From the NCBI GenBank assembly GCA_001917665.1, contig MNEL01000020.1, forward strand, positions 1 through 64,000: a stretch of DNA of 64,000 bases. Reading direction: 5' to 3'. The DNA comes from Gemmatimonadetes bacterium 13_1_40CM_69_22. GTDB lineage: Bacteria > Gemmatimonadota > Gemmatimonadetes > Gemmatimonadales > GWC2-71-9. Within the stretch, counting starts at the first letter, position 1; the number at the start of each line of letters is the position of its first letter. Both the position numbers and the translations under genes were made by a program. This document shows positions 1,293 through 5,817 of the stretch, in pieces. The notes under the pieces were generated by a model. The model saw only the letters and a program-made list of their open reading frames with translations. It did not search any database and had not been told where the DNA came from.

Positions 1293-2625
1293 GCTCGTCA
1301 TCGCCAGTCGGCGCGTGGCGACCCCGGACGGGATAGGTCCGGCGGCCGTGGTGATCGCCCAGGGCGTGATCACCGCGGTCCGAGCTTACGGCGAGCCCCG
1401 GGACGCTACCCGGCTGCTCGACCTGGGAGATGCCGTGGTGCTGCCCGGCGTGGTGGATACGCACGTACACGTGAACGAGCCAGGGCGCACCCAGTGGGAA
1501 GGCTTTGTGACCGCGACGCGGGCCGCGGCCGCAGGGGGGGTCACGACCATCGTGGACATGCCGCTGAACAGCGTTCCGGTGACGACCACGGTTCAGGCCC
1601 TGGAGCAGAAGGCCCGGTCGGCGGCCGGCCACGCCGTGGTGGACTACGCGTTCTGGGGCGGCGTCGTGCCCGGCAACGCCGACCGGCTCGCGCCGCTCGC
1701 CCGCGCGGGTGCGCTCGGCTTCAAGTGTTTCATGGTCGCGTCGGGGATCGACGAGTTCCCACCGGTAGCGGAAGCCGACCTGCGCCCGGCCATGACGCGA
1801 CTCGCCGAGCTCGGGCTGCCACTGCTCGTTCACGCCGAGCTCCCCGGGCCTATCGCGCAAGCCGCGGCCGCTGCTCCCGCCGACCCGCGCCGCTACGCCG
1901 CGTATCTCGCCTCCCGGCCGCGTGCCGCGGAGCTCGACGCGATCGACGCGATCCTCGGGCTGTCCCGCGAGACCGGATGCCGGGTTCACATCGTGCACCT
2001 CTCGGCAGCCGATGCGCTGAGCCGGCTGCGAGACGCGCGGCGCGCCGGCCTCCCGCTGACGGTCGAGACCTGCCCGCACTACCTCACCTTCGCCGCGGAC
2101 GACATCGCGGACGGCGCCACCGCCTGGAAGTGCGCCCCACCGATTCGTGAGCGGGAGAACCGCGAGCGCCTCTGGACCGGCCTGGCCGAGGGGACCATCG
2201 ACTTCGTGGCGAGCGACCACTCGCCGGCACCTCCGGAGCTGAGGTGTCTCGAGGCCGGCGACTTCTTCCGCGCCTGGGGCGGTGTGGCCTCGCTCGAGCT
2301 GGCGCTCGCCGTCACGTGGACCGGTGCGCGCGCTCGCGGCCACGACCCGCGAGACCTCGCTCGCTGGCTCGCCGAGCGGCCGGCCAGGCTCGCCGGCTTG
2401 CGCGGCAAGGGCCGCATCGCCCCGGGGGCCGATGCCGACCTGGTGGTGTTCGATCCGGACGCGCGATTCACCGTCGATCCCTCGCGGCTGCGTCAGCGAC
2501 ATCCCATCACCCCTTACGCCGGGATGACGCTGTACGGCGTCGTGCGGCAGACGTTCGTTCGAGGTTGCTGCGTATACGACGAGGGGACGTTTCCGGCGGG
2601 GGCCGTGGGCCAATGGGTGCGCTAA
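1279..2625 (+). CDS. allB: Allantoinase
   Basis: Hydrolyses allantoin to allantoate (cyclic amidohydrolase, cytoplasmic, binuclear metal centre). The chosen ATG at 1279 gives 448 residues, the usual size; longer in-frame reading upstream would run through the BKACE gene. The metal site is complete: THVHVNEPGR (His62, His64), the carbamylated-lysine region GFKCFM (Lys149), LLVHAE (His185), VHIVHLS (about 235-241) and the aspartate in ASDHSPAP. The set matches allantoinase better than dihydroorotase or dihydropyrimidinase, and allantoicase and ureidoimidazoline genes follow directly. Translationally coupled to the preceding BKACE gene by a 14-nt overlap. Confidence 0.93.
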   Translation: MAPAELVIASRRVATPDGIGPAAVVIAQGVITAVRAYGEPRDATRLLDLGDAVVLPGVVDTHVHVNEPGRTQWEGFVTATRAAAAGGVTTIVDMPLNSVPVTTTVQALEQKARSAAGHAVVDYAFWGGVVPGNADRLAPLARAGALGFKCFMVASGIDEFPPVAEADLRPAMTRLAELGLPLLVHAELPGPIAQAAAAAPADPRRYAAYLASRPRAAELDAIDAILGLSRETGCRVHIVHLSAADALSRLRDARRAGLPLTVETCPHYLTFAADDIADGATAWKCAPPIRERENRERLWTGLAEGTIDFVASDHSPAPPELRCLEAGDFFRAWGGVASLELALAVTWTGARARGHDPRDLARWLAERPARLAGLRGKGRIAPGADADLVVFDPDARFTVDPSRLRQRHPITPYAGMTLYGVVRQTFVRGCCVYDEGTFPAGAVGQWVR

Positions 2626-2638
2626 CTCCGTGGCCGAG

Positions 2639-2656
2639 CCCACCCCTTGGGGTGGG
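2639..2656. repeat. Perfect hairpin covering the allantoicase leader
   Basis: CCCACCCC, TT, GGGGTGGG: an 8-bp perfect stem with a 2-nt loop. The right arm is the only G-rich, Shine-Dalgarno-like stretch in front of the ATG at 2660, so in RNA the hairpin could mask it. Alternatively it is one of the dispersed palindromes found elsewhere in this window. Confidence 0.6.
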
Positions 2657-2659
2657 AAC

Positions 2660-3673
2660 ATGATGCGCGACGGTTGCATCGATTTGGCGGCCGCGCGCGT
2701 CGGCGGGCGGGCGCTCCTCGCGAGCGACGAGTTTTTCGCGCCCAAGGAGAACCTGCTCGAGCCCGGGCGCGGAGTGTTCCTCGAGGGCAAATACACCGAT
2801 CGGGGCAAGTGGATGGACGGGTGGGAGACGCGGCGGCGCCGCGGGCCGGGCCCAGACCACGACTGGTGCATCATCCGCTTGGGCATCCCGGGAGTGATCC
2901 GGGCGGTCACGGTGGACACCAATCATTTCAGGGGCAACCATCCCGTGGCATGCTCGCTGCACGCAGCGGAGCTGCGGGGGGCCCCCACCGCGCAACGGCT
3001 GCGCGCCCTGGGCCACGCCTTCGTGGAGCTCGTGCCGCGCTCACCACTCACGGGACACGCCGAAAACGACTTCTTGACGGGGAGCGACGCCCGGTGCACG
3101 CACGTCCGCCTCAACATCTACCCGGACGGCGGCATAGCCCGCTTGCGCGTCTGGGGTGAGGCGCGCCCAGACTGGCGACGGATCACGAGTACCGAGCGGG
3201 GCGCGATCGACCTAGTCGCGGTGGAGCACGGTGGGCTCCCCCTCGCCACCAGCGACCAGTTCTTCAGCGAGCCGCTGAACCTGATCATGCCGGGTCGGCC
3301 GCGCGATATGGCCGACGGCTGGGAGACGCGGCGGCGCCGCGACCGTGGCCACGACTGGGTCGTGCTGCGGCTCGGCCGGCGGGGCGTGATCGAGCGGATC
3401 GAACTGAACACGACTCACTTCAAGGGCAACTTCCCCGAGAGCGCGGGGCTCAAGGGGTGCGACGCGCCCGCGCTCCGCGGCGTCGCCACGCCTCTCGACA
3501 CCGCCGACTGGCGCGAGCTGCTGCCCCGCGCCAAACTGCGGGCCGACACGCGGCACCGCTTCGTGCTCCGCCGCCCGACACGGGTACCGGTGACGCACGT
3601 CCGGCTGAACATCTTCCCGGACGGCGGGGTGGCGCGGCTGCGACTCTGGGGGCGGCCGGTGGACCCCGTGTGA
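2660..3673 (+). CDS. alc: Allantoicase
   Basis: Hydrolyses allantoate to (S)-ureidoglycolate and urea. It has the family's two tandem jelly-roll repeats: the first has DEFFAPKENLL, MDGWETRRRR and DTNHFRGN; the second has DQFFSEPLNLI, ADGWETRRRR and NTTHFKGN. Each ends with a THVRLNI(Y/F)PDGG(I/V)ARLR(V/L)WG signature. The ATG at 2660 (or the adjacent ATG at 2663) is preferred over the GTG at 2630. It places DLAAARVGG at the family's usual N-terminal position and leaves the hairpin at 2639-2656 outside the protein. With allB upstream and uraD/uraH downstream, the purine-breakdown role is secure. Confidence 0.93.
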   Translation: MMRDGCIDLAAARVGGRALLASDEFFAPKENLLEPGRGVFLEGKYTDRGKWMDGWETRRRRGPGPDHDWCIIRLGIPGVIRAVTVDTNHFRGNHPVACSLHAAELRGAPTAQRLRALGHAFVELVPRSPLTGHAENDFLTGSDARCTHVRLNIYPDGGIARLRVWGEARPDWRRITSTERGAIDLVAVEHGGLPLATSDQFFSEPLNLIMPGRPRDMADGWETRRRRDRGHDWVVLRLGRRGVIERIELNTTHFKGNFPESAGLKGCDAPALRGVATPLDTADWRELLPRAKLRADTRHRFVLRRPTRVPVTHVRLNIFPDGGVARLRLWGRPVDPV

Positions 3674-3686
3674 GCGCCCGTCGTGG

Positions 3687-3766
3687 TTCACAGGCTGAAG
3701 CCTGTGCTCGGCACGTCACTACCCTTACGGGTAGCGTCTCACCGAGCACACCCTTCAGGGTGTGAA
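3687..3766. repeat. Composite REP-like palindromic element (three hairpins plus outer stem)
   Basis: 80-bp intergenic element. Hairpin A is CACAGGC-TGAA-GCCTGTG (3689-3706). Hairpin B is TACCC-TTAC-GGGTA (3720-3733). Hairpin C is CACACCC-TTCA-GGGTGTG (3747-3764). GTGCTCGG (3704-3711) pairs with CCGAGCAC (3742-3749) to enclose hairpin B. The ends are symmetric (TTCACA... and ...TGTGAA). The arrangement resembles REP/BIME elements mobilised by Y1 (RAYT) transposases. A short reading frame across it is only a translation of the repeat. Confidence 0.75.
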
Positions 3767-3776
3767 CAGGATCGCC

Positions 3777-4250
3777 GTGTATTTCAATGGGCTCCCCGAG
3801 CGCGACGCCCGCGCGGCGTTGCAGCGCTGTTGCGGCGCGCGGCGCTGGGTGGACGAGATGCTCGCCGCCCGCCCGTTCGCGAGCGACGCCGTGTTGCTCG
3901 CACACGCCGCGCGCGTCTGGTGGGCGCTCGGGCGGGAGGATTGGCTCGAAGCGTTCGCGCGCCACCCACGGATCGGCGAGCGGACCGCGGAACAGTGGTC
4001 GCGCCGCGAGCAGGCCGGCGTGGACACGGCCCCGGCCGCCACGCGCGCCGCCCTCGCCCGTGAGAACCTCGCCTACACCGAGCGGTTCGGGTATCTGTTC
4101 CTGACTTGTGCCACGGGGAAGACCGCCGGCGAGATGCTCGGCGAGCTGCGCCGCCGCCTCGCACACGACCCGGCCACGGAGCTCCGGATCGCGGCGGGCG
4201 AGCAGGCGAAGATCACCCGGCTCCGACTCGAGAAACTGGTGTCGCCATGA
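3777..4250 (+). CDS. uraD: 2-oxo-4-hydroxy-4-carboxy-5-ureidoimidazoline (OHCU) decarboxylase
   Basis: Decarboxylates OHCU to (S)-allantoin, the last step from urate. About 157 residues, all-helical. The family signature FARHPRIGE contains the catalytic histidine (His63), followed by SRREQAGV and the C-terminal half NLAYTERFGYLFLTCATGKT. The GTG at 3777 is chosen. A GTG at 3762 is in frame but lies within the palindromic element ending at 3766. The stop overlaps the uraH start (ATGA, 4247-4250), giving a coupled uraD-uraH pair that processes consecutive products of urate oxidation. Confidence 0.92.
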   Translation: MYFNGLPERDARAALQRCCGARRWVDEMLAARPFASDAVLLAHAARVWWALGREDWLEAFARHPRIGERTAEQWSRREQAGVDTAPAATRAALARENLAYTERFGYLFLTCATGKTAGEMLGELRRRLAHDPATELRIAAGEQAKITRLRLEKLVSP

Positions 4251-4585
4251 GCGGAATCACGACGCACGTCCTGGACACCGCGCGCGGACGGCCCGCCGCC
4301 GGCATCGCCGTCTCACTGGCGTGGCAGACCGGCGACGGTTGGACCGAGCTCGCCTCCGGCCGGACCGACGCCGATGGCCGCGTCGCCGATCTGCTACCGG
4401 CGCGAGTGCAGGACGCGGCCGGCACCTACCGCCTTCGCTTCGACGTCGGAGCCTATTTCGCGGCGCAAGGCGCCGCGCCTCTCTTCCCGTACGTCGATGT
4501 CGTGTTCGACATCCGCGACGCGGGGCGCTATCACGTGCCGCTCCTGGTCAGCCCGTTCGGCTATACCACCTACCGCGGCAGCTGA
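4247..4585 (+). CDS. uraH: 5-hydroxyisourate hydrolase (transthyretin-like)
   Basis: Hydrolyses 5-hydroxyisourate to OHCU. The 112-residue transthyretin fold has the three diagnostic regions: N-terminal THVLDTARGRPAAG with catalytic His, the central arginine/histidine strand (YHVPLLVSPFGY), and the C-terminal tetrapeptide YRGS that separates hydrolases from true transthyretins. The ATG at 4247 overlaps the uraD stop. No signal peptide, so it is cytoplasmic. It sits 8 nt before the urate oxidase gene, so substrate producer and consumer are adjacent. Confidence 0.95.
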   Translation: MSGITTHVLDTARGRPAAGIAVSLAWQTGDGWTELASGRTDADGRVADLLPARVQDAAGTYRLRFDVGAYFAAQGAAPLFPYVDVVFDIRDAGRYHVPLLVSPFGYTTYRGS

Positions 4586-4593
4586 GCCCCGGC

Positions 4594-5817
4594 GTGGACA
4601 CGCACCTCGGTCAGTGGCTCAACCTGGCGCTCCGCTGGGGCCACGTGATCACGGGAGTCGCGTGGATCGGAACGTCGTTCTACTTCAACTGGCTGAACAG
4701 CCGGCTGGCGCCGCCCCCGCCCGAGCGCGCCGAGCCGGGGGTCGCGGGCGAGCTCTGGTCGGTCCACGGCGGCGGGTTCTACCGAGTAGTCAAGTACGCG
4801 GTCGCCCCCACCCGCCTCCCCCCTACGCTCCACTGGTTCAAATGGGAGGCGTACGCCACCTGGCTCACCGGCTTCGCGCTGCTCGCCTGGGTCTACTACG
4901 TGGGGGCGGCGGCCTACCTCGTGGACCCGCAAGTCTCCCGGCTCGGCCCGCGTGCCGCGATCGCCGTCGGCCTCGGGACGCTGCTCGGCGCTTGGGTGGT
5001 GTACGACGCGCTGTGCCGGTCGCGGCTCGCGAACTCGCCTCTCGCCCTCGCTGCGACGCTGTTCGTCCTCGGGACCGGGCTCGCGTGGGGACTCACGCAG
5101 CTGCTCGCTCCCCGCGCGGCCTACCTCCACGTCGGCGCGGCGCTCGGCACGATCATGGCTGCGAACGTCCTCATGGTGATCATCCCATCCCAGCGGGACA
5201 TGGTCACCGCCTTGACGGAGGGGCGGGCGCCCGACGCAGCTCGGGGCGCACAGGCTGCGCTCCGCTCGCTCCACAACAACTATTTCACGCTGCCCGTCTT
5301 GTTCATCATGGTCAGCTCGCACTACCCCGAGACGTACGGCCACACGCTGAGCTGGTTGATCCTCGCCGGGCTTGCGCTGGTGGGCGTGGCGACGCGGCAT
5401 TGGTTCAACCTGCGCAACGAGGGGCGCCCGAACGGGTGGCTCCTGCCAGGAGCGGCGCTGGCCATGGTGGCGCTCGCGGTCGTCACGGCTCCACGGCGTG
5501 CCGACCGAACGGGGGCGTACGAGAGGGCGGGGGCGAACCCGACGGCGGGGAACACGGCGTCATTCGCTGAGGTGCGCGTGATCATGGCGCGCCGTTGCGC
5601 ACCGTGCCACTCCGCAGCGCCCACCGTGCCGGGCCTCACCACTCCGCCGCGCGGCGTCGCGTTCGACACGCCGGAGCAGATCCGCACCCGTGCCGACCGG
5701 ATCCTCGTCATGGCCGCGACGACCCACACCATGCCGCTTGGCAACGTCACTGGGATGACGGACGAGGAGCGCGCGCTCGTGGCCCGGTGGATACGGGCCG
5801 GGGCCCTGCTTCGTTAG
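4594..5817 (+). CDS. puuD: PuuD-type membrane urate oxidase with C-terminal cytochrome c
   Basis: Oxidises urate to 5-hydroxyisourate, passing electrons to the respiratory chain instead of making peroxide. The N-terminal part (about residues 1-300) is a multi-pass DUF989 membrane domain with HVITGVAWIGTSFYFNWLN, GEL(W)SVHGGGFY and HNNYFTLPVLFIMVSSHYPETYG. The C-terminal part (about 325-407) is a c-type cytochrome: Cys335-Ala-Pro-Cys338-His339 and a distal methionine region (TTHTMPLGNVTGMT). GTG start, 407 residues. It follows uraH and ends 1 nt before the convergent xanthine dehydrogenase subunit, so urate made by that enzyme is the likely substrate. Confidence 0.93.
   Translation: MDTHLGQWLNLALRWGHVITGVAWIGTSFYFNWLNSRLAPPPPERAEPGVAGELWSVHGGGFYRVVKYAVAPTRLPPTLHWFKWEAYATWLTGFALLAWVYYVGAAAYLVDPQVSRLGPRAAIAVGLGTLLGAWVVYDALCRSRLANSPLALAATLFVLGTGLAWGLTQLLAPRAAYLHVGAALGTIMAANVLMVIIPSQRDMVTALTEGRAPDAARGAQAALRSLHNNYFTLPVLFIMVSSHYPETYGHTLSWLILAGLALVGVATRHWFNLRNEGRPNGWLLPGAALAMVALAVVTAPRRADRTGAYERAGANPTAGNTASFAEVRVIMARRCAPCHSAAPTVPGLTTPPRGVAFDTPEQIRTRADRILVMAATTHTMPLGNVTGMTDEERALVARWIRAGALLR

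Follow-up and report, generated by a model that had tools for sequence, protein, structure and literature searches.

A probable REPIN-like mobile repeat at an alc–uraD junction, one of a Gemmatimonadota family, and its putative IS200-like, domesticated-looking transposase

The window analysed here is a 64,000-nucleotide stretch (positions 1 to 64,000) of contig MNEL01000020.1, from a Gemmatimonadota soil metagenome-assembled genome (MAG) whose assembly comprises 2.36 Mb in 60 contigs and is 71.5% complete; among named genomes, Gemmatimonadetes soil MAGs are its closest relatives. The window contains a purine operon. The allantoicase gene alc (2630–3673, + strand; likely start ATG 2660) matched TIGR02961 with 409 bits as well as PF03561. 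Downstream of it lies uraD (3762–4250, + strand; start GTG 3762 or GTG 3777; TIGR03180, 177.7 bits), and next comes uraH (TIGR02962, 137.8 bits), which overlaps uraD through an ATGA. These matches bear out an earlier placement, made from the bare sequence, of a hairpin element between alc and uraD of a purine operon.

Taking as limits the points where copies with unrelated flanks cease to match, we placed the element at 3686–3767 (82 bp, no strand assigned). An element of 80 bp had been proposed at 3687–3766; it is there, but its true limits lie one base further out on each side. It is an inward-facing dimer of two inverted 28-nt units, each consisting of a hairpin tipped by CTGAAG and then GCTCGGY, and the two units have one middle hairpin in common. 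In the left unit (3686–3713, + strand), the hairpin at 3689–3706 has the loop TGAA and is followed by GCTCGGC; in the right unit (3740–3767, − strand), the hairpin at 3747–3764 has the loop TTCA and is accompanied by GCTCGGT. The middle hairpin (3719–3734, no strand assigned) has the loop TTAC, and across it CTCGG at 3707–3711 (+ strand), the 5′ half of an outer stem, pairs with CCGAG at 3742–3746. The termini, GTTCACA and TGTGAAC, are mirror images, and the 39-nt arms around the 4-nt centre are 77% complementary. All three loops, the outer stem and the mirrored ends are as the sequence-only reading had described them. At the alc stop, GTGTGAGC resembles GTGTGAAC at the element's end in the manner of a target-site duplication; GTGTGAAC also belongs to the inverted end.

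The fold of positions 3670–3785 was far better than expected by chance (z = −4.5; 0/200 shuffles equally good). For the isolated RNA, ViennaRNA predicts a long imperfect hairpin bearing the middle hairpin (−45.5 kcal/mol) in preference to a cloverleaf (−39.4), giving the inter-unit pair 6–77 a predicted probability of 0.998. To see which structure is conserved, we used an alignment of 14 copies (A2: nine from congeners, the window copy and four dimers from its own genome; locus L251, with two middle hairpins, was excluded). The three-hairpin form was paired in 94.5% of cells, and both partners had changed in 12 of its 25 pairs and in 31 cells, a covariation equalled by 0/500 shuffles. Four of the six pairs of the middle hairpin were changed on both sides over the 14 copies, and the outer stem was paired in 97.1% of cells with 4/5 pairs invariant. 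The inter-unit long hairpin was paired in 83.2% of cells, and both partners had changed in 6 of its 17 pairs and in 11 cells; its covariation lay above most shuffles (1–9 of 500 reached it), as is expected for inverted copies. We therefore rejected the long hairpin as the conserved structure, its covariation being weaker than that of the three-hairpin form despite its thermodynamic preference. The proposal of a cloverleaf-like element thus holds for the form that covaries strongly over the 14 copies, but not for the predicted fold of the isolated RNA. We read this covariation as suggesting selection on each unit's own hairpin, which would be expected if a transposase recognises single-stranded units.

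The element belongs to a dispersed family. The pattern CTRAAGN{4,8}GCTCGG matched its own genome 33 times, against 6 times in a reversed control; within the window, GGCTGAAGCC alone and the motif of the middle hairpin alone occurred at chance frequency. The fold statistic, the own-genome pattern counts and the covariation together rule out chance hairpins. From the pattern search we aligned 18 own-genome units (A1), the window units excluded. Their tip and GCTCGG are invariant by construction, having been selected by the pattern; their stem, on which there was no such selection, paired in 94.4% of cells, with 5/7 pairs changed on both sides. A model built from this alignment (R1), and hence without the window units, recovered the left unit with 42.3 bits and the right with 34.3 bits, together with a third, single unit (2632–2659, − strand; 26.2 bits) that lies after the stop of allB (2625) and just ahead of ATG 2660 of alc.

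Across its own genome, R1 found 58 matches at E≤1 and 31 at E≤1e-4. At the permissive threshold of E≤1, 22 of the 58 units formed 11 pairs within 150 bp, while 36 lay outside close pairs. Every one of the 11 pairs faced inward, where 0.2 pairs were expected at random; four spanned 80–83 nt (the three-hairpin kind) and seven 97–172 nt. A crude gene caller placed 21 of the 30 best matches in intergenic sequence and 3 at gene edges; the other 6 lay within an ORF, in 4 cases close to its 5′ end.

At E≤1e-4, R1 detected units in 23/61 relatives, including all five genomes of the genus (the own genome counted among them), 0/17 in family f2 and 2/7 in f3. A scan of the phylum at E≤1e-6, with 25 candidates scored per genome, gave matches in 27/298 genomes, all in the window's family. 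Searched with a 96-bp query at E≤1e-5, 3/4 same-genus genomes gave matches, 17 rows in all; we examined 10 copies, the other rows being partial matches or reverse readings of places already taken, and the full-length congener copies among them had unrelated flanks. A model of the whole dimer built from A2 (R2) had matches in 14/14 genomes, all chosen for carrying units, and its counts may be up to about double because many symmetric copies are reported on both strands. The sequence-only reading had expected further copies, and there are many in the own genome and the genus; a single copy with none in relatives, the outcome it held to be fatal, is clearly not what we found. The own genome also contains one four-hairpin dimer (L038, G000:C25 near 29886), much like a member found at another alc–uraD junction (L060, below), which suggests that several subfamilies coexist. 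None of the papers listed by our literature searches is about such a repeat family in Gemmatimonadota.

We then compared the alc–uraD junction across relatives. Of 80 alc loci fetched, ten were from Gemmatimonadota (L056–L065) and nine of these reached uraD, the contig of L059 ending too early; R1 was applied to 25 of the 80. A locus of the same genus (L056, 80% alc identity) has the orthologous element at the same junction, in decayed form (26.7 and 18.7 bits), with one compensating A-T to G-C pair in its middle hairpin. The single unit at 2632–2659 is missing there, so the operon acquired units at two junctions. At L058 and L060 the junction holds a different, four-hairpin member of the family, and no element was found at the junction of L057 (79% alc identity) or of L061–L065. 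In a tree of alc and uraD, L057 is sister to the window and L056 (supports 0.914 and 0.917); since this sister genus is empty, the window copy was most simply inserted after that split, as far as this phylogeny indicates, or it may be an older insertion followed by later losses. An empty site in a near relative is what a mobile element had been expected to leave, and to judge from these sequences the junction has been struck by elements more than once. In L059, hairpin-like sequence (CACCCTTTAGGGTG) occurs at 3960–4055 and at the allB–alc junction near 2985–3010, without an R1 match at E≤0.05.

The element also meets the start of uraD. As had been noted from the sequence, an alternative GTG of uraD lies inside it: GTG 3762 is in frame, in the last stem. 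In L057, uraD starts with a GTG and overlaps the alc stop by four bases; GTG 3762 aligns with that start and so may be the ancestral one. The second candidate, GTG 3777, has AGGA a short way upstream. Predicted folding buries GTG 3762 (0.05 unpaired) and lowers the accessibility of GTG 3777 from 0.41 without the element to 0.18 with it, and that of AGGAT from 0.55 to 0.39, a modest predicted loss at the uraD start. An influence on transcript stability or uraD translation had been suggested from the sequence. The likely consequence, on these models, would be a loss of alc–uraD coupling with some damping: the inserted element separates the two genes and leaves the uraD start with a stable hairpin, which would probably alter mRNA processing or dampen uraD translation.

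Such effects raise the question of whether an element of mobile origin is now retained as an operon regulator, stabilising the 3′ end of alc mRNA, acting as an attenuator or damping uraD translation. The predicted burial of GTG 3762 and reduced access to GTG 3777 would agree with this, as would the persistence of the L056 copy in the same place with a compensated pair in its middle hairpin. The outer units of that copy have decayed, however, L057 and five others do without the element, and of the four further genomes in the genus, three (G001, G003, G004) gave no uraD match at all at E≤1e-15, so that the purine pathway itself is patchy within the genus. We consider retention as a regulator unlikely, and the location of the element in a purine operon is probably incidental.

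A Y1 transposase, suggested as the element's partner, was sought in the same genomes, and we found Y1 genes flanked by the element's units. The own genome contains three Y1_Tnp genes (on contigs C29, C50 and C58), and units of the element's family flank those on C29 and C50. The gene on C58 (L021, G000:C58:36000-42500) adjoins a different hairpin (ACCCCGGGCGCAAGCCCGGGGT) that occurs five times, spaced 52 bp apart (3465–3694 of that locus); this hairpin has no R1 match and is apparently that transposase's own repeat family. In a less selected set of loci, found with Pfam, 14/31 contained an R1 unit within the locus. A second set, retrieved with the G004 protein and thus biased towards such transposases, had a unit within 150 bp in 26/30 loci, and in 15/30 the gene lay between units less than 300 bp away on either side. 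Among 37 f1 genomes, Y1 genes were present in 17/21 with units and 5/16 without (Fisher p 0.006); the 4/21 with units and no Y1 gene include several incomplete assemblies. Positive genomes have one to four Y1 genes each, and the three proteins of the own genome are strongly divergent, with 32–40% identity to the first A3 sequence.

The C50 transposase has the same ADH-like neighbour in six loci from two genera. In the window's genome its catalytic Tyr is replaced by His, although an assembly error is also possible; the G004 orthologue has the Tyr and units on both sides, and the G034 orthologue has a stop within the frame. We infer that this gene and its orthologues are the element's cognate transposase. 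With His in place of the catalytic Tyr, the C50 transposase would no longer be able to move the window copy.

The sequence-only reading had called for a RAYT-like transposase. The genes flanked by units exist, but their products are IS200-like. They are HUH proteins of about 125–145 residues with THVH or DHVH; 28/30 have the spacing Y---Q, 14/30 show Q--HH and four aligned proteins carry a W-A motif. None of the 30 has Y---NP, the signature of TnpAREP in the excerpted PMC6006769. Of ten proteins scanned by profile, 8 passed the cut-off of NF033573 (IS200) and 0 that of NF047646 (REP, 80 bits). A canonical RAYT is thus excluded by motif and by profile. The class 3 signature given in the same excerpts, Y----Q, was likewise not what we found, the prevailing Y---Q being one residue shorter. 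The closest solved chains were the transposases 2xm3, 2xma and 2xo6. We take these to be ISDra2 TnpA.

These features leave room for the view that the units belong to an ordinary autonomous IS200/IS605 element as its subterminal hairpins and that the 82-bp element is debris, an internal deletion of the MITE or PATE type. The proteins have the IS200 profile and Y---Q of subclass 1.1, with all ten below the REP cut-off, and in several loci, e.g. L288, L289, L304, L306 and L310, single inward units enclose the transposase gene. Yet the near-identical multiple copies of subclass 1.1 were not found: there are one to four genes per genome, those of the own genome are divergent, and one gene is stable in its locus across two genera. 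Moreover, the units are true inverted pairs, and in L282, L284 and L303 it is dimers that flank the gene. We regard this account as quite improbable. Least credible, to the point that we give it almost no weight, is a dedicated structured RNA (riboswitch or sRNA) or a terminator of the purine operon, for which the intercistronic position and strong fold would speak: there is no Rfam match in 2400–4800 at E≤0.1 and no T-run after the hairpins, and the many copies elsewhere, in unrelated surroundings, refute this reading as a complete account. Hairpins within operons of soil MAGs can thus be mobile repeats and not regulatory RNAs.

Its copies are dispersed, its units pair inward and its hairpins are conserved; it is present or absent at a single junction, and units flank transposase genes. 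On this evidence the element is very probably a non-autonomous miniature mobile repeat, REPIN-like and one of a Gemmatimonadota family, whose units are most likely cut by a small HUH/Y1 transposase. Against this reading stand the 36/58 own-genome units outside close pairs, the 6/30 best matches inside a called ORF, the f1 genomes with units and no Y1 gene (4/21) or with a Y1 gene and no units (5/16), the mere 14/31 loci with a unit in the less selected set, and the long hairpin predicted for the isolated RNA. The inner second hairpins of two inward-facing 28-nt units appear to have fused into one. The tyrosine transposase would most likely recognise and cut the folded single-stranded DNA of a unit, and would move or copy the unit pair into gene junctions by single-strand cleavage and joining.

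Whether such a system belongs with REPs depends on the feature considered. Its palindromic units are dispersed and mainly extragenic, as in REPs generally; as in REPINs and BIMEs, they are inverted (11/11 inward) with the spacer forming a larger hairpin, as the A2 structure has it. Y1 genes are flanked by matching units, as in a REPtron (26/30 loci in the biased set, 14/31 in the Pfam set), and share the low copy number and stable chromosomal place of RAYTs (one to four genes; six loci in two genera). The earlier assignment to REP/BIME-type non-autonomous elements therefore stands as regards the many dispersed copies, the Y1 genes with units and the empty junction, but not as regards the tag: 0/18 A1 units start with GTAG or GTGG, which excludes a canonical GTAG REP. 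In its workings the system resembles a REPtron equipped with REPINs, yet it lacks two defining features of the GTAG REP/RAYT system.

This combination of REPIN-like repeats and a syntenic transposase with IS200-like motifs, no GTAG and several subfamilies in close relatives bears on how IS200-type transposases became chromosome-resident spreaders of tiny hairpin repeats. The matched pairs of protein and repeat, and a natural Tyr-to-His copy beside intact orthologues, make tag recognition and domestication testable, and the element may help to show how such transposases and repeats became tied. We offer tentatively, as a serious possibility, the broader view that this is a REP/REPIN-like system apart from GTAG REPs, driven by a fixed, low-copy IS200-like (Y---Q) transposase; that it represents a living intermediate between IS and RAYT; and that the three-hairpin mobile unit arose when the inner hairpins of a four-hairpin dimer fused.

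Among known systems, REPINs and BIMEs built of GTAG REPs and mobilised with a RAYT (class 2), as portrayed in excerpts of PMC3116915, PMC3733652 and PMC8266576, share with the present family short hairpin units in inverted pairs whose spacer may itself hold a hairpin, mainly intergenic dispersal, units beside a low-copy Y1 transposase and one unit family per transposase. They differ in that here there is no GTAG or GTGG tag, the conserved unpaired motif being GCTCGGC on the inner side, and in that the Gemmatimonadota transposases have Y---Q where RAYTs have Y---NP. Excerpts of a survey of transposase classes (PMC6006769), in which the phylum Gemmatimonadota goes without mention, supply the remaining comparisons. 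TnpA of subclasses 1.1 and 1.2 share the Y---Q spacing and IS200 profile, and subclass 1.2 also the Q--HH found in about half of our proteins and the low copy number. Subclass 1.1, however, consists of high-copy mobile IS with near-identical copies, and subclass 1.2, as excerpted there, is without REPs, has a W-Q motif where our four aligned proteins have W-A, and occurs mostly in Cyanobacteria and Bacteroidetes. Of the systems described, class 3 TnpAY1 of Planctomycetes and Acidobacteria comes nearest: according to the same excerpts it is IS200-related and low-copy, with atypical hairpins on its flanks that occur in many copies and lack GTAG, and in our own comparison its foot CnGA resembles the CCGA(G) that lies beside the hairpin here, on the opposite strand. 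As described there, class 3 differs in having Y----Q, NHVH and about 178 residues, in place of the Y---Q, THVH or DHVH and smaller size seen here. In the excerpted survey, class 3 proteins are proposed as intermediates on the way from IS200-type to chromosome-resident transposases (PMC6006769).
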